From positions 62,001 through 126,000 of the forward strand of contig JNDT01002350.1 in the NCBI GenBank assembly GCA_000697055.1: 64,000 nucleotides of DNA, given 5' to 3'. The position numbers were made by a program, and so were the translations under genes. Every line of letters begins with the position of its first letter. Within the stretch, counting starts at the first letter, position 1. Positions 21,872 to 32,240 of the stretch are shown one piece after another. The stretch comes from Saksenaea vasiformis B4078. Lineage: Eukaryota > Mucoromycota > Mucoromycetes > Mucorales > Saksenaeaceae. Below the pieces are notes generated by a model. That model was given only the letters and a program-made list of their open reading frames with translations. It did not search any database and had not been told where the DNA came from.

Positions 21872-23290
21872 ATGGATAGTCTCGACAAAGCCATCGAAGA
21901 GGTTTTGCCTGAGGTTGGAGATTCTCTTGTCAGAAATGCGGCAAGCGAAGCTCGGAAGAGATTGAATGCCTTAGTTCTCAGGCGAAATCAAGAATCGGAT
22001 AAGGTAGATCTGGAAACGCAAGATCTTTTTATACGCTTATTTTACTTCCATACAGTTTGAGGAGAATGACCTGGTCTTTGTGACTCATGCACATGACTCG
22101 GTTGCTACAACGATAAAAAGGGCAGCTGTCAAGAAGATGGAAAATTATCACCAATTGACTTACCAGAAAAAGTCCTTAGTAACGTAAGCAGAATTAAAAT
22201 AGAGTACGTAGTCGCTAAGAAACAGATCCGAAAGACTTGGCCTGAACTCTATTTTGGACCTCACTATAAAGCATGCTGGACCTCAATACTCGCTATTCAA
22301 TGAGAAAGATTGGAAAGAACTCCACAGGGCGTACAAGGCATCTATAGACGCAGAAAAAGCAGTGTCGAAAAATACATCGGTCATCAAGGAGATTGAACGT
22401 GTAAGAAAACCCAAAAGTTCTTATCATGGGCATTATTTGTTTAACGTTCTAGCGTAGCTTGCCAAGGATGATCTAAGAGATGCAAGAGAGTACGCCCAAA
22501 AAGCTGAGATGAAGGCATCTAGGAAATCCGAAGCGGACGTCTTTTCTACTTATGCATCCTAGTACCGTATAAATATTCAGGATTGAATTGGGTCTCATCT
22601 AGTTTCCTCTAGTCTCGAAGTTCTGGAATACCACTCGTATATCTTCGAAAAAAATGGCGTGGATATCACTGAGAACGATCTAGTAGTGAAAATTTGGGGG
22701 CCGATCCTAGAAAAGCTATTTCGTCAGACGAACTTGCGGTGCAAATGGTAACAGTTTGGACCAATTCGCACCTCTATGAATTTGACATTATGGTAGGGGA
22801 GAATCAGTAGGAGATTCCTGCGGTGTAACTGAAGGCACAGGCTTCAAAGTCGATCTACGGATCGTAAAGAACAATCGTAAACGAGGAAGAAAGGAAGTCG
22901 ACCAGTCAAGCGCGGAGATAGCTCGTCTGGATGCCACAATTGCAAAATCTAGCAGTGATAAAACTAAATTATTGATCGAATCTAAATGCACACTTGATCG
23001 GCTGCTTGGTGAGGTGGTATACCAGCAAGACGTTGTAATTCCAGCATTACAGCTATCAGGTAGCGTTTTGCAGAACCAAGACAAGATGCTCTTAATAATA
23101 TGAGATAATTTCAGGGGTGAAAGCAAGTCTTTATTCCTTACGACTCGCGGCTGATGGCCTGTACGTTGCAGTACACGAAGGCTCAGGCACGTTGCCTCAT
23201 TCTGCCCGCAACTTCAAAGATATGCGTCACGTGGTGGAGACGTTGTACAAGACTTGCCATACGGACCGCAGAAAATTTACGTCGGCATAA
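21872..23290 (+). pseudogene. Degenerate member of a lineage-specific protein family (unknown function)
   Basis: A multi-exon reading can be followed. It starts MDSLDKAIEEVLPEVGDSLV, with an intron at about 22002-22058, then FEENDLVFVTHAHDSV, then LFNEKDWKELHRAYKAS and LAKDDLRDAREYAQKAEM. A core follows (VKIWGPILEKLFRQTNLRCKW, EGTGFKVDLRIVKNNRK, VKASLYSLRLAADGLYVAVH). Stops and frame changes interrupt it (TAG near 22560, loss of frame near 22755, TAA at 23288-23290). The pattern 'LRxxWGE ... FKVDxRI ... LLIESKxxLDRL ... GLYVAV' reminds me, from memory, of a large uncharacterised family in Mucorales genomes. No function can be assigned. A second relic lies at 34.7-36.1 kb. Confidence 0.6.
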
Positions 23291-23960
23291 TATTTACCCG
23301 GATCTCACATCCAGTATTTCGATGTGTTCAATGCGACTATTTCTGACAACACCACGCGCAACTTTAACCAGCAAGCAGATAATATGATGCACTGCAAGGA
23401 CTGCAAAATGTATAAGGAAACAGCGAAATTTTCTGGAAGAAGGCGGTAGTATAAGACCTGCGAAGGCTACCGAAGGCAGAACCGAGGAACGAGAGACTCT
23501 GTCCCTTTGGAACAAATGATTTCGTTATATGACTTCGAGGAAGGCGGAACACGAAGGAAAGCTTATCGTCATGAACGTAGACGAATATAACACGTCTCAA
23601 GTATGTTCACGATGCGGCGAAAAATCTTTGGAACAAGCCAGACGCTAATGTTGCTCGGAGCACGTATGTATCTGCTATAATACCATCCACCATGGTTGCC
23701 GTCCAAGCACTTTTCTTTTTACCATCTGGAGGTAGTTAGCACTTCCTGCCTTACGGTTGTAAATATAGGTGTCCGCACATGTTATCCTAATGTTACTAAT
23801 GCTGCATCTGCTTTGCCCATTCTTATGTCGTTATTCGTTGATCTATTGGTACATCGTTATTGCTCCGCTAGTGGAGCTTATTTGGAAAGACGTGATAGAA
23901 TTGATTAATTGAGTGTGATCCATCTTTATGTCATAATTGTGCATACGACACCGCAGTCAG
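23291..23960 (+). pseudogene. Cys-motif fragment followed by a Fanzor/TnpB-type zinc-finger fragment
   Basis: In the frame of the preceding relic, after its TAA, the translation continues with QYFDVFNATISDNT and then a Cys motif (CKDCKMYKETAKFSGRRR, a TAG at 23448-23450, then YKTCEGYRRQNR). Near 23570 a different frame opens with NVDEYNTSQVCSRCGEKS. This matches the VDEYNTSKICCRC zinc-finger entry of the Fanzor-like gene at 28.48 kb. A weak CHNCAYDTAVRIM word near 23935 might be the eroded second half of such a finger. No intact gene remains. Confidence 0.5.
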
Positions 23961-24265
23961 AATAATGAAAACTGTAAATGGATCCTCTCTCTATAGCATT
24001 CTTTTACTAAGATTTTATGTTATTCTAGGCAGACTTTGCGTCCGTGGAGAGCTTTTCAACTGCGTTTTGCGGGAATATCTGCGCATGGATGTGCCTGCAA
24101 AATCTCAACACTTCTGCAATTGTGCTATGATAGATTAATTTCAGACACATGAGATACATGAAACAAAGAAATGTATGAAACAAAAAAAAGATTGCTAAAT
24201 ACAATAAAGAAAAGCACTTCCTTTTAGTAAGGCGCCTTCATTCTTCCTTACGTTTTCTATACTTT

Positions 24266-25447
24266 ATGGGTATTAAAGGATTGCATCATTTCTATAAAAA
24301 GGCGGAGGCGTACCAGGAAGTCTCTTCGCTTCGTGATGCTCTAGATGAATCTGGCGTGGAGATAGTGTTTATCGACTTTTGCGCCGTCTTTTTTTGGCTA
24401 TTGCAAGAAGTTGTTGCAGTAGATTTAATCACTCATTACTTGCAAAACTTCAAGGGTACTCTGTTTTCCCTATAAAGCCGGTCCTAACACAGGAAGATAG
24501 GTATTTCTTTGCAGTTACCGGATAAGGGACCGAGCATGATTGTTGCACACTCTGTTCTATGTTCCCTCGGTTATATTGAAAAGCTGTACAGCACGCAAGT
24601 TCCTCGCCGTCAAATATGCCTAGTTATTGATGGAAGAGAATCGCCAGCGAAGCGGAAACTCACAAACATCGGCAACAAAACTCGAAATTTGCATTCAACT
24701 CAGCGTTTCGTTTGGCTAGAAAGGGCCTGCGATGCGAGAAAAATAGGAAGAAGTTCGAAAAACAAGCTAGATCCTGGGTGCGTTTTAGTCCAGAGGTCAA
24801 GAATGCAGTGGCACAGGTACACAGCTCATTATGTCTGTTCTGTAAATCTAACTAATGAACGCATAAATGGTAGGCACTCGTTGCTCTGCAAATCCCTGAG
24901 TACTCTGCAGAAAACAGTCAACGTGTATCGTTTTTCCGTGCGCCATTCGAGGCGGACCCTTGTCTAGTACATCTGGCTAACACCTCATCCTACAAAGGCG
25001 GTATACTTTCTCCCGATGGCGACCTTTTCGTATACAGTGGAGCTCTGGAGACATTGGTAAGCAGAAGCTATCTAACGACATGGCTAATCTTGTCTCTAGA
25101 GAATTCTGCATATTGACTAGAAAAACGACATTGTATCCGCTCGTATCACTGCCAAATCTACAGTACTCGAAAAACTAGGGCTGCGCAAAGAATACGAGGA
25201 GGACTATCAACTAGTATGTAGAAGATGTTCATGCAGATTCCAACCTAATATTATAACAGGCGGAAAGGCGCTTGGCGGTGATCGCATCGATGTCTGGAAA
25301 TGATTACGCTGCGAACGTTAGAAAACTGTCGTTTGGCAAACTACAAAAGCTAGTCAAAGAGACTTCTGGAACGATTGAGTTCGCTGATGAACTGATGGAC
25401 AATGTAAGCTTCACTGCAACTTAAGCAGCCACTAATTTTACATCAAG
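24266..25447 (+). other. XPG/FEN1-like nuclease region at the N-terminus of the Fanzor-like gene
   Basis: Family motifs appear in the expected order. MGIKGLHHFYKKAEA is an XPG N-terminal start. EIVFIDFCAVFFWLLQ carries an early acidic residue on a strand. ICLVIDGRESPAKRK matches the 'FDGxxxxxK' element. FFRAPFEADPCLVHLA matches the XPG-I 'APxEAD' motif. GGILSPDGDLFVYSGALETL matches the 'SxDxDLLxxG' element. RRLAVIASMSGNDYAAN resembles the 'xxGxDYxxG' helix-hairpin-helix entry. The acidic residues of the XPG-I core (E and D of FEAD, the two D of DGD) are present. The reading joins the Fanzor-like part in frame through GT-AG introns, so one polypeptide is the simplest model. Two adjacent genes cannot be excluded. 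Confidence 0.7.
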
Positions 25448-27925
25448 GTGATTGACCGACTGCCTCTTGTGTCCGACATTCAGCGTAGCCGCTTCTACAT
25501 TGCGCTACGTCAATTTTCTGCTCCTACAGTGGGCTGCCGAGAAGGCACAACAAGTATTCGTCCTGATAGTACAATGATAAAGATACTGAGAAACGATGTG
25601 TTGCAACAAGTCGCCACGGTGGGAAGCCGATACACGTTTGCGGACACATGTTTGATCGACGAGACTGGTACGAGCGAAGAGAAGTGGGGCAAACTCCGCA
25701 ATTATCGTCCGCCAACTGTCAAACCATCTGCAGGGAAAAAACGGCGCAAACGCAGAAAGGTCTCTGGCAATCAGGCAGAACCAGACAAACGTAAAGAGGA
25801 CACTAAAAAGCTTGTGTACAATGATCCAAGCACCGGCGAAGAGATCCAACTTCATGAACTGACAAGAGCAACTTCGACTTGGACGTCCGGCCTGTATTCG
25901 TCCGTTCTGGCAGCGGCAAGCGCAAGGTGTCCATCCCAGCAGCAGAAAGCTAAACTCCAAGCTGAAGTGATTTGCGAGGTCCTTGACAAAGAAGTGCGGG
26001 ATATGTCCCTTGTGCGAACAATCGCATTACAGATGGCCAACCTTGCACTCCGCGCAGCTCAAAGGTTAGAACCTTCCCGCCGAGACAAAGTTTTTCGTGC
26101 ATTTTTCCAAAGTACTATGGCTTCAACCAGCAAACAGAACACTGATAAGCCTTTGGAGAACGCAGCGAAAACTTGGTCATGGATTCTGTGCTCGGCAATG
26201 GAGTATAGCTATTGGAGAGGCAAACCTAATCGTTATCCGCGGGTAATGCATAGTTTAGACGTTGAAGAACCACTTTTACTTCCAGATACGTTGTTGAGAA
26301 CCCTAACGCGTATATTGCCTTCCCAGAGGATAGAAGCATCACGGCGTTAGTAATGCTCATGAACGACGATCCCGAACTTCGGGACGTCCTCCTGTATGCC
26401 CGAAAGATTTGGTTCCTAGGTTATCGGCACGACTGGAGTAAGGTTCCTCATCTACCGACAGTAGATTACCGCCGCAATATTATCCGTCAGATGGCTGAAC
26501 AGATGGATACGAATTTCCGGCAGTGTGTGCTGTCGAACTTCATCAAGAATTCCATTGACTGCATTCGCACGGTGCTCAAAGATATCGCACAGCGGCCACA
26601 GGGCTGGCCAAGCCATCAAGCGTTTCCACGGTATCTGTTGGAGAAGGCAACGGGTGACAATGGCGAAACAGACACAGCTCTGCAGGAGGTCGATCGGCTT
26701 TTTCGACAGCTCGATGGAGCCACAAAGAAACAGATCAATCAATTCATTGATGAGCTGAAAAAAGATCTGCGTAAGGCTACCGCTGGTGGAAACCACTTGT
26801 CCCTAGACGACGTTTCGGATAGGCTGCGAAGAAAGGCGACCGTGCCCGATAACTGGCCTAGCCATGACAGTTTTCAGGAGTACCTGTTTGCTAAAGTCTG
26901 GCATGTGCCACTGGATATTGGTGATACGGAAGCTTCCATTATCAACGTGGGCCGGTGTAAAGACGTGGAACTGGCGATCACGAAACTTCCTGAAGCAAGC
27001 CAACAGGAGATCGACGACCTTGTGTCTTCTCACCGAAAATGCCTGGAAGAAATATTGCAAAAGAAAATTGGCAACAAGGTATTCAACCCGCATTATGATA
27101 TCAAGCATAGTGTCTAAATTGATGATTTATAGGCAAGTTCGAGTTTCCGAGGTCATGTGGTTGATCTATACCAATGTTTGGGGGTTGCACGTCCATCCGA
27201 AAGCAAACCTCCAACCAGGACTGCAGGAGTGCCTTCGAAACGCAGACCAACTGATCCACGTGAGGAAGACGAAGTTGCCGAGGATGAACAGCTTGCGGAA
27301 GGGCATGTTCTCTTGCCTTTACTAGTCTACTTCCTTAATCAGTATCCAAACGATATGTCGTTTCGCCTTTGCCCTACTGCCTCAAATCACAACATGTGCG
27401 TCCCTTTCACTAATGAACACGTGAAACAATTATTCAAGCATATTGACCACTTCTACGTTGGAGAACGGCTAGCAGGTAACGGTAATCACCAAGCTAAATA
27501 ACAATATTGAAAAATCTCATGACGCATTCAAAGAAAGCGGTCTAAAGCAATCCTGGGATGTCTTTCTGTCTCAAGCATCAACCGGTCGAAAGCGGGGTGA
27601 TTGCTTTAAATTTGTGTTTGACCAGACGGCCAGGGCAGTCGTTGACTCCAAGAGAAACAATATCGTGAAGAAGAGGAATAGCGATTATGAAAGGAGACTG
27701 CGCAAATGTATATCCGGCACGCAGCTACCGAGATTCACCGTCAAATCCATGTTTCAAACGGATGGTGTGAAACTTGTTGTTCCTTACACTGATTGGTGTA
27801 CGTCATCTTTCAAGCAAAAGCAACCTTTCCTGCCTGAGATACGAACGTTGTACTAAAGAACAAGACAAGAAAATCAAGCATCATCATCAACGAATATACT
27901 CGCTGATTATGACGGTGTCGTTGGT

Positions 27926-28732
27926 TTGGATCTAGGTGAGACTTATGCGGCGGCATCCTTTTTTATGCCAACCGGATCGGAGCGGAGGGGAGTTCAACTG
28001 ACTGTGAAGCGTAACGAACTTTATGGACGCAGCGCGATCAATGCTGCTTGGCTTCAAGATCGGAAGTCGAAATTTGGTATTGTGGAAGACGAGGACGCCT
28101 TGAGCTGCGGCTCACAAAGCTCGGATATGACGAAGCTGTTACTATACATCCGCGCATGGCAAGAAGATCATCGTGGCTTCCGCATCCGTAACTTCTATAA
28201 CAACAAATCAGTCATGCGTCGTTCTTGGGACACCTCTTTGTCTATCCGTTCCGCTCTTGACAAAGCTTGCACAAGTATCATCAAATCCACGACATATCCA
28301 TCTGGCGGCTCTTCGGGATCAGCATGCGCACAGCGCAAACCGGTGATATTCGCATTCGGAATGGATGGTATAATTCCAGGCAACCGGAAAGGGACACCAT
28401 CTTCTATGGACGGCAGACTTATGAACAGGCTGAGACAGCATATCAAAGCTTTAAACGAACAACACCAAATATGTCGTGTCGATGAATACAATACCTCAAA
28501 GATTTGTTGTCGATGTCTCCAACAAGGAACGGCTTCGAATGTTCGATATCTTCAGCGATCAACGGACCATGGAGAACAAGATATTTTGCGTATCCTCGTC
28601 TGTGACGCTTGCAGCGGTTTCTTCCACCGCGATGGCAGCGCTGCGCACAATATAGCTTCGATTACCACTTCCATGCTAGCACATGGGAAGCGTCCATCGT
28701 GCTTCATTCGGCCATCACGGCGATTAGAATGA
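27926..28732 (+). CDS. Intact open frame for the RuvC and zinc-finger module of the Fanzor-like gene
   Basis: 268 uninterrupted codons, in the same frame as the upstream 27614-27853 stretch and separated from it only by the TAA at 27854. It holds all three RuvC acidic residues (codons at 27929, 28484 and 28631) and the four zinc-finger cysteines (two near 28506-28515, two near 28602). The spacing from FAFGMDG to the VDE Glu is about 42 codons, as described for the rearranged active site of Fanzor proteins. The catalytic module is better preserved than the rest of the gene. There is no natural ATG near its beginning, so it is unlikely to be translated alone. Confidence 0.7.
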   Translation: MDLGETYAAASFFMPTGSERRGVQLTVKRNELYGRSAINAAWLQDRKSKFGIVEDEDALSCGSQSSDMTKLLLYIRAWQEDHRGFRIRNFYNNKSVMRRSWDTSLSIRSALDKACTSIIKSTTYPSGGSSGSACAQRKPVIFAFGMDGIIPGNRKGTPSSMDGRLMNRLRQHIKALNEQHQICRVDEYNTSKICCRCLQQGTASNVRYLQRSTDHGEQDILRILVCDACSGFFHRDGSAAHNIASITTSMLAHGKRPSCFIRPSRRLE

Positions 28733-28870
28733 GAAGTCCACCTCGACAAGTGGACTGGGCCTTCGCGCCCGTAGGTGCTCAGGTAGGCAACACGTCAAGT
28801 TCGTAGTCCGATAACTGAAGTTGTACCCGTAATTTTTCTGCGGTCCGTAGAGCACCTGTTGTACAAGTTC
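28733..28870 (+). ncRNA. Candidate guide-RNA scaffold (omega/fRNA-like) downstream of the Fanzor-like gene
   Basis: Starts two bases after the stop codon. Helix 1 is AGTCCAC/GTGGACT (28735-28741 with 28750-28756, 8-nt loop). Helix 2 is GGGC/GCCC (28757-28760 with 28767-28770, 6-nt loop). Helix 3 is AGGTGCTC/GAGCACCT (28773-28780 with 28850-28857, a perfect 8-bp stem extendable by two G-U pairs). A small CTGCG/CGTAG hairpin (28838-28842 with 28846-28850) overlaps its right arm by one base. TnpB and Fanzor guide RNAs are known to come from the 3' end of the gene and the adjoining element end. The location is from family knowledge, the helices are seen in the sequence, and the RNA itself is inference. 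Confidence 0.5.
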
Positions 28871-31480: not shown

Positions 31481-32240
31481 TTTTACGCTGAGATATATAA
31501 ATTTTGCGTCCATGAGCAGCCACTTTTACGCTAAGAAAAGAATCAAGTATGCGTTCGTTAATACATAAATTGGCGACAAATTCATACACTACTTACATCA
31601 GCGCGGCCCCTCGATGGAAGCGGAATTCATGTAGACAGCATAACAATTCGTTCATGGCTATTAAATGGAATAATACTTGGATGTCATTTTACTTAACCCC
31701 CGAAGGGTAATCCCATGAAGGTCATGGTGGCCACACCCCGCACCGTGATGGGTGGGAGTGGGAGAGTAGAGGAGATTGGCTTCGATATATTGGCCAATTG
31801 TAGCGCACTGCAGAGAACTTGGAGCGATACAACGTCCGGCGATCTATTGTACAAGATGAGTGATGCTGAGTGCGACAACATTTATTTTACTTACTTAAGT
31901 GATGGGTAAAAGCGCCACCACAGCCGAAACGGTTCGGGACAGAGGTCATACAGTCTAAACACTACATCAAAAAACATGAGTAATCCTGGATGCGTATCCC
32001 AGTAAAAGTACATACCGGGGATGTAAAATGAACAGAACCAAAAAAAAAAAAAAAAAAAGAATTCATGCGTCCCTTTAAATACTCTCACTATACGCGTTCC
32101 GATTGGTGCGTTAGCGAACCTATTACAATGGACCAGCGCAATACGCCTTTGATTTAGAGGTAAAGGTACCTGAGATTCTGCTGCAAAAGCTCTCGGGTAC
32201 GCACTGCAAGATTGATTTGGTACCAACGCAAAGTAGTATT
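31481..32240 (+). repeat. Dispersed non-autonomous element, copy 3
   Basis: Blocks in order: TTTTTACGCTGAG and TTGCGTCCATGAGCAGCC; TACATAAATTGGCGACAAAT; CTTAACCCCCGAAGGGTAAT with a GC-rich part (CACCCCGCACCGTGATGGGTG); CAACGTCCGGCGATC; ACGGTTCGGGACAGAGGTCA; CATACCGGGGATGTAAAATG; a poly(A) run (32041-32058); ATGCGTCCCTTTAAATAC (32065-32082). Similarity to copy 1 continues to about 32180. Confidence 0.8.

Follow-up and report, generated by a model that had tools for sequence, protein, structure and literature searches.

A predicted fusion of an XPG-family nuclease with a Fanzor1 nuclease in a Mutator-type transposon of Saksenaea vasiformis, and its occurrence in two other moulds

The window analyzed here, a stretch of 64,000 nucleotides of the Saksenaea vasiformis B4078 genome (assembly GCA_000697055.1, contig JNDT01002350.1, positions 62,001 to 126,000 of the forward strand; all coordinates below are those of the window), contains a 5.6-kb Mutator-type element (MULE) at 23252-28857. 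It is bounded by terminal inverted repeats (TIRs) and a target-site duplication (TSD) and holds the remains of a gene that begins at 24266 and that would have encoded, from N- to C-terminus, a nuclease domain of the XPG/FEN1/EXO1 family, a middle region and a Fanzor1 nuclease. We regard the existence of this fusion and the family identity of its two parts as very probable. A preliminary description of the window had presented 27600-28732 as a whole Fanzor-type module; that reading was rejected, since the gene starts at 24266 and the module is only its C-terminal end. Beyond that description, we found that the copy is a pseudogene, that the element is of the MULE type and that the N-terminal half is an XPG-family nuclease. 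Other copies are referred to by their contigs (C277, C545 and so on). The features of the locus are:

23242..23251, no strand: 5' TSD, GTTGTACAAG, identical to the 10 bp at 28858-28867
23252..23281, plus strand: 5' TIR; the inverted-repeat pair is 85% complementary over 39 nt, target-site bases included
23407..23520, plus strand: weak remnant of a MULE transposase (tblastn with an open reading frame (ORF) of C401, E 0.002, 45% over 38 aa)
24266..24457, plus strand: XPG-family exon (MGIKGLHHF...VFIDFCAVFFWLL...) with the predicted first catalytic Asp; exon end approximate
24527..24816, plus strand: XPG-family exon with ICLVIDG; frame changes between 24634 and 24655, in one frame in C277
24931..25059, plus strand: XPG-family exon (FEADP ... 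SPDGDLF) with the I-region acids; Pfam XPG_I in relatives
25100..25216, plus strand: short XPG-family exon with an in-frame stop
25260..25403, plus strand: XPG-family exon with GNDY and, by motif, the last catalytic Asp
25448..27117, plus strand: middle region plus the first part of the Fanzor recognition lobe, with inferred limits; colinear with C277, frame changes between 26059 and 26392
27133..27501, plus strand: further coding segment (VDLYQCLG..., FTNEHVKQLF); same ORF in C277
27473..27853, plus strand: Fanzor segment before RuvC-I (TDGVKLVVPYTDW); ends at the TAA at 27854-27856, open in C277
27857..28732, plus strand: Fanzor1 RuvC/TNB part with D25, E210, C4 finger and D259 (PF07282, SpuFz1 profile, AlphaFold and Foldseek)
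28735..28770, plus strand: hairpins AGTCCAC/GTGGACT (28735-28756) and GGGC/GCCC (28757-28770), both part of a candidate omega-RNA scaffold; counts over nine copies
28773..28780, plus strand: AGGTGCTC, which as the 5' arm of a long stem pairs over 8 bp with the element terminus (28850-28857)
28828..28857, minus strand: 3' TIR; the final 8 bases form the 3' arm of that stem
28858..28867, no strand: 3' TSD, GTTGTACAAG, matching the 5' copy

The open frame at 27857-28732 (plus strand, 291 aa) contains the motifs that the preliminary description had named, and all of them were recovered where it had placed them: GLDLGE at 27923-27940 (Asp codon 27929, D25 of the frame), FAFGMDG without a Glu at 28349-28369, VDEYNTSK at 28478-28501 (Glu codon 28484, E210), HRDG at 28625 (Asp codon 28631, D259) and the CxxC pairs of a C4 finger, which lie in ICCRC and VCDAC (residues 217-220 and 249-252). 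The frame matched Pfam PF07282 (Cas12f1-like_TNB) with E 4.5e-7 and 30.4 bits (cut-off 26.3), which is far above chance. The motif D-X(125,275)-[TS][TS]-XX-C4 finger-X(5,50)-RD, defined in the main text of PMC3627910 as common to Fanzor and TnpB, is present with D25, T213-S214 and RD at 258-259, at spacings of 187 and 5. E210 is invariant in all five sequences of the RuvC/TNB alignment; the site where the RuvC-II Glu usually lies (28349-28369, GMDG) holds an Asp that is likewise invariant in the five aligned sequences. A profile search against the PDB recovered SpuFz1, the Fanzor1 of Spizellomyces punctatus, with E 0.013 as the sole Fanzor among six matches, and aligned its E541 and D606 with E210 and D259 of the window, both at offset 394; PMC10432273 names E541 among the ligands of the magnesium ions in the active site. 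Foldseek with an AlphaFold model of the frame ranked SpuFz1 first (E 1.2e-6; next match 2.3e-3), and SpuFz1, PpFz1 (from Parasitella parasitica) and GtFz1 were all among the structural matches listed for the model. Database relatives of the domain came from Apophysomyces (9 of 14) and Rhizomucor pusillus (2 of 14), amongst others, which makes a host among the Mucorales probable.

The call of a Fanzor-type nuclease in a fungal genome was thus borne out, including by the Pfam profile search that had been proposed as a check, and we assign the feature, on its sequence and predicted fold, to the RuvC/TNB nuclease part of a Fanzor1. Its description as a "rearranged" catalytic site did not hold: because E210 and D259 align with E541 and D606 of SpuFz1, the site has the ordinary Fanzor1 layout, and the displaced Glu was rejected as a novelty. 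PMC11423790 describes a catalytic Glu on a loop ahead of the TNB domain as the arrangement classically found in Fanzor, TnpB and Cas12a. Likewise, 27614-28732 had been read as a single translated frame, which is interrupted by an in-frame TAA at 27854-27856 that splits the 291-aa frame from the upstream segment 27473-27853; the C277 copy, with 94% identity, is open across this site. Two points speak against the assignment: two designed helical repeat proteins outscored SpuFz1 in the profile search (E 0.0033 vs 0.013), and the AlphaFold model of the RuvC/TNB part has a middling pLDDT of 63.0. The designed proteins were rejected as an identity because they constitute a repeat match, and ParM and other actin-like folds in the Foldseek list were taken as spurious. 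A single-sequence search of the PDB with the window ORF gave no match. The genome (38.7 Mb, 666 contigs) contains at least 97 matches to the window frame at E <= 0.001, a lower bound since 134 of the 174 candidates were scored. Dozens of more distant Fanzor-like C-terminal matches were seen on many contigs (~27-40% identity over about query residues 150-290), which suggests that other Fanzor families occur in the same genome.

Upstream, the first exon of the gene opens at 24266 with MGIKGLHHF...VFIDFC; ICLVIDG, FEADP...SPDGDLF and GNDY come after it in separate exons. Such a series is characteristic of XPG/FEN1/EXO1 nucleases, and profile searches against the PDB pointed to the same family: a six-sequence profile matched human EXO1 (E 4.8e-7), and a five-sequence profile that included Lichtheimia matched EXO1 (1.5e-7), Rad2 (0.011), FEN1 (2.5) and XPG (3.7). 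In Pfam, XPG_I was matched at E <= 1 by five of the six members (best 2.7e-5) and XPG_N by three of the six (best 0.0028). An annotated protein of Lichtheimia hyalospora, P0016, has an acid at each of the seven positions (D37, D103, E191, D193, D213, D215, D282), as do the exon pieces of the window. Five of the P0016 acids, counted along the profile alignment, fall on EXO1 D78, E150, D152, D171 and D173, which have a catalytic role there; the first and last of the seven were placed by motif only. The N-terminal part is by these sequence matches a nuclease domain of the XPG/FEN1/EXO1 family. It has in common with EXO1, RAD2-XPG and FEN1 the MGIKGL N-terminus, the acid set and the XPG_I region, with human EXO1 as the best relative in the PDB, and differs in being a transposon protein fused to Fanzor and much diverged in sequence. 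Several observations count against this identification: single-sequence Pfam matches to XPG were weak (the best member, at 24.9 bits, equals the cut-off as printed and the others fall below it), the C277 member had no XPG match in Pfam at E <= 1 and has lost one of the acids (DGE for DGD), and the structure model that holds the XPG part (single-sequence, P0001) is unusable at a pLDDT of 33.5. The weak Pfam matches to XRN_N (0.0063), DUF2797 and PUF_NOP9 were below their cut-offs and were taken as spurious, as was a match to a MutT chain. When Pfam XPG_I was scanned over the genome, none of the five matches listed lay inside one of these elements.

Several observations connect the two domains. 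Protein P0016 of Lichtheimia hyalospora (1,416 aa) combines a full set of XPG acids in its N-terminal part with a full Fanzor set (D1126, E1322, D1381) in its C-terminal part, and is colinear with whole elements of the Saksenaea genome, most fully with C376; its residues 1012-1410 match window 27599-28720 with one TAA, and the order seen at 25448-27117 is that of P0016 in the sister copies as well. An annotated protein of Apophysomyces ossiformis, P0001 (1,036 aa), extends from the XPG region to just past RuvC-I and is partial. Of the 18 contigs with an XPG match, 12 had one to Fanzor further downstream in the same orientation, four (C637, C226, C265, C57) reach the contig end, and two (C5, C551) had no Fanzor match. 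We further observed a second XPG-Fanzor family, termed A-type (L028, L029, L030, L035 and L039, i.e. C238, C395, C428, C637 and C226), the members of which have a common 3' end and a C-terminal tail rich in charged residues. In its copy C637, splicing of exons 1-3 at GT-AG introns gives a stop-free frame of 414 aa that reaches the contig end; in C238, exon 3, which starts before GNDY, and exon 4 (Fanzor) are separated by a 58-bp GT-AG intron and together give 1,244 aa from the GNDY region to the Fanzor end with no internal stop. One might argue that the fused protein is an annotation artefact in which gene prediction merged two neighbouring genes, as P0001 lacks both the XPG start and the Fanzor end and gene models are predictions; we consider this very improbable, because a single C238 exon extends from GNDY across the middle region and is joined in frame to the Fanzor exon via a GT-AG intron, and Lichtheimia provides an independent gene model of 1416 aa.

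We conclude from the sequences that the XPG-Fanzor fusion occurs in three moulds: that of the window, Apophysomyces and Lichtheimia. Where intact, the protein is likely to comprise about 1,400-1,500 aa, with an XPG-family N-terminus and a Fanzor1 C-terminus of which the window feature would be the decayed end. What detracts from this reconstruction is that the copies of the window family are decayed, so that a colinear domain order and not one open frame is seen, that none of the examined copies is intact end to end, and that the spliced stretches were obtained from separate A-type copies, C637 and C238. Relatives of P0016 were not found in phage records, and none of the 74 and 67 pattern matches in viral contigs was confirmed as a relative. 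Literature searches that paired Fanzor with XPG, Lichtheimia or Mucoromycota yielded nothing describing such a protein, with most subscription papers out of reach, and neither did those for Fanzor with FEN1, for a fusion of Fanzor with an N-terminal nuclease domain, or for TnpB with flap endonuclease, as judged by titles and the starts of abstracts. Academ transposons carry an XPG nuclease; a literature search for Academ, XPG and transposon found nothing.

The ratio of replacement to silent substitution rates (dN/dS) between copies shows signs of past purifying selection on the XPG part. Between C545 and C662 it was 0.18, 0.19, 0.16 and 0.10 in four XPG segments and in exon 1 of three A-type pairs it was 0.20-0.37; the clearest pairs have several times as many silent as replacement changes. 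Comparisons with C637 were made without gaps, and rows with C501 or C637 were excluded, as were the frame-shifted VDG segment of the window (0.77 for window vs C277) and the EADP segment of C567, the shifted frame of which (defined ratios 0.50-1.28) speaks for decay of C567. Less favourable to selection are the N-terminal segments of C265-C401 and C545-C567 (0.58 and 0.55, on very few changes), the segments in a shifted frame (up to 1.28) and the diverged pairs, in most of which the ratio is undefined as silent sites are saturated. These data also bear on the possibility that the XPG-like domain is catalytically dead, or a structural or DNA-binding add-on like the non-catalytic insertions of other Fanzor1 proteins. 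The mid-range XPG profile scores would fit such a domain, and PpFz1 (9cf0, 9cf1) offers a precedent, its extra domain being described in part of PMC11423790 as a cyclophilin-binding RuvC insertion (FRI) and not as an N-terminal nuclease. The conservation of all seven acid positions in P0016 and the excess of silent changes in the clearest pairs make this explanation unlikely in our view, and activity of both halves in intact copies is, as far as can be predicted from sequence, the probable state.

The RuvC part gave a different picture for the window. The window and C277 have a dN/dS of 0.998 over 230 codons of RuvC, as expected after a loss of selection when copies have died, and of 1.05 in an N-terminal segment; the ratio was 0.12 over 99 codons of RuvC between the window and C567, and 0.54, on few changes, between the A-type copies C238 and C428. 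Compared with C277, the window copy has two in-frame stops and changes frame twice; to judge from its reading frames, it is a pseudogene. Very probably the locus itself is a dead relic without present function, a reading that the stops, the frame changes and the neutral RuvC ratio favour and that is compatible with the proposed nature of the family; it is silent on intact relatives elsewhere, and a structured 3' RNA from the locus is possible.

Homology with other genomic copies begins near 23255 and ends near 28857, in agreement with the element ends. The TIRs of the window element are imperfect; a degenerate pattern of them (<= 2 mismatches) was found at 73 places in the genome and at none with the reversed control. 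MULE/MuDR elements make TSDs of 8-11 bp, and the lengths found here fit: 10 bp in the window and, read by eye, 9 bp in C277 (CGAGAAAGA) and C545 (ATGAAGAAA). A MULE transposase domain (PF10551, E 1.9e-8) lies inside the 8.1-kb C545 element, and transposase-related sequence occurs also in the 5' part of C401, C501 and C662; the C401 ORF is 68% identical over 50 aa to that of C545, and C277 has a remnant at the same relative place as the window (E 2.5e-4, tblastn). The genome contains 48 MULE matches in total. By these sequence features the window element is a DNA transposon of the MULE type, some copies of which carry MULE transposase sequence. Two observations fit this classification poorly: the C401 ORF has no Pfam match of its own, and the remnants share the strand of the Fanzor gene in C401, C662, C277 and the window, whereas C545 and C501 have them on the other strand, a difference that is unexplained. 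In terms of loci, the orientation relative to the Fanzor gene of L059:420-1214 and L026:8669-9484 is opposite to that of L025:6282-7118 and L027:8506-9501. Bao and Jurka (2013; PMC3627910) assigned ROr-4, PBl-3 and MCi-4, Fanzor1 elements from Rhizopus, Phycomyces and Mucor, to the MuDr superfamily on the strength of their TIRs and 9-bp TSDs, the TSD length given there for MuDr-type Fanzor1 elements. Like the window family, these carry Fanzor1 inside TIR elements of Mucorales; unlike some copies here, they encode no MuDR transposase according to the main text of that paper, in which the terms XPG, FEN1 and flap are absent, whereas the N-terminus found here is an XPG-family nuclease.

The company of a transposase raises the alternative that the XPG part serves the MULE transposase, acting on excision or insertion intermediates, with Fanzor working alone and the single polypeptide ensuring only co-expression. 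XPG-family enzymes are general flap and bubble nucleases, and the XPG and Fanzor parts do travel in an element with MULE transposase remnants. The fusion is also found in Lichtheimia, Apophysomyces and the A-type family, and its presence on A-type contigs, which showed no match to these TIRs, speaks for a link between the halves and not to one transposase; we therefore hold service to the transposase to be rather unlikely. On the side of the fusion as a mobile unit, it is a difficulty that the TIR pattern, with up to 2 mismatches allowed, was not found on the seven A-type contigs, which leaves their mobility unexplained. The 5' ends of A-type elements were searched for and not found.

The stretch from the stop codon to the end of the element measures 125 bp, and a covarying RNA structure is predicted for it. 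It consists of the two hairpins listed above, a long stem that joins AGGTGCTC to the terminal GAGCACCT, and, as fourth element, a TIR hairpin, all of which can be formed by nine copies; one pair of the long stem is changed on both sides in two of the seven copies that have letters there. Over the nine copies, 92.0% of the cells of the named structure were paired and 11 were double-change cells, and the paired share, the double-change cells and the covariation score were each reached by none of 500 shuffles; slid versions of the structure gave 28-43% paired and at most one double-change cell. The minimum free energy of the window sequence had a z of -2.12 (5 of 200 shuffles as low). An RNAalifold consensus of 22 pairs, 8 of them with double changes, keeps the first hairpin and drops the second hairpin and the long stem. 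The sequence of the first hairpin occurs at 11 genome sites within 3 mismatches (reversed control 0), 10 of which adjoin Fanzor matches. The remaining one, G000:C390:107613-107634, lies on a contig without a Fanzor match among those listed, and is perhaps a stand-alone scaffold. The prediction is weakened by two of five measures that did not beat shuffling (double-change pairs, 85 of 500; further pair types, 470 of 500), by the naming of the structure from a single-sequence fold of one aligned copy, from which part of the advantage is expected, by the relatedness of the copies, and by the position of helix 4 and one arm of helix 3 inside the TIR, which is conserved for another cause. In Rfam no match above the gathering score was found for the 3' region; iscRS, below that score, was rejected as spurious.

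Taken together with what is known of Fanzor and TnpB, these elements allow a mechanism to be sketched. Given the TSD length, the TIRs and the transposase remnants, a MULE transposase would move the element. RNA read from the gene's 3' end as far as the element terminus would, by analogy with Fanzor/TnpB, fold as a scaffold, with the sequence just past the element end as the guide, as in known systems. The RuvC half could then cut DNA that matches the guide, for example the site emptied by excision, and the XPG half might trim 5' ends or flaps, or cut the R-loop, at the break; such end processing may favour homologous repair that copies the transposon back. That RNA-guided cutting is joined to end processing in one protein we propose tentatively, by analogy. 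The same reserve applies to the fuller picture of a two-nuclease RNA-guided enzyme, in which a break introduced by the omega-RNA-guided RuvC domain would be resected, or the R-loop cleaved, by an EXO1/FEN1-like domain within the same polypeptide, steering the outcome to homologous copy-back. SpuFz1 (8gkh, 9ceu-9cez) has in common with the protein described here the RuvC/TNB part with the Glu and the last Asp, and is the best Foldseek match; in the solved structures it lacks an XPG part, whereas the protein here is predicted to have several hundred extra N-terminal residues and a second active site.

As to the role of Fanzor for eukaryotic transposons, a fusion with a 5'-end or flap nuclease under apparent selection makes one answer directly testable, namely that the RNA-guided cut is made for resection and copy repair. 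If so, this would be an RNA-guided nuclease that brings its own end-processing enzyme. The fusion also provides a natural design for genome-editing enzymes in which DNA cutting is coupled to the processing of ends.

Two minor observations concern repeats related to, or lying near, the element. Short elements resembling miniature inverted-repeat transposable elements were found with the same TIRs as the XPG-Fanzor element: 8 of the 12 convergent neighbouring TIR pairs measure 627-800 bp (on contigs C186, C239, C368, C596, C49, C377, C659 and C180), and because of the shared TIRs one transposase may move both kinds. Further downstream in the window, 31805-31997 shows ~71% identity over 198 columns with sequence flanking the C662 element (L027:1987-2174) and represents a different repeat.

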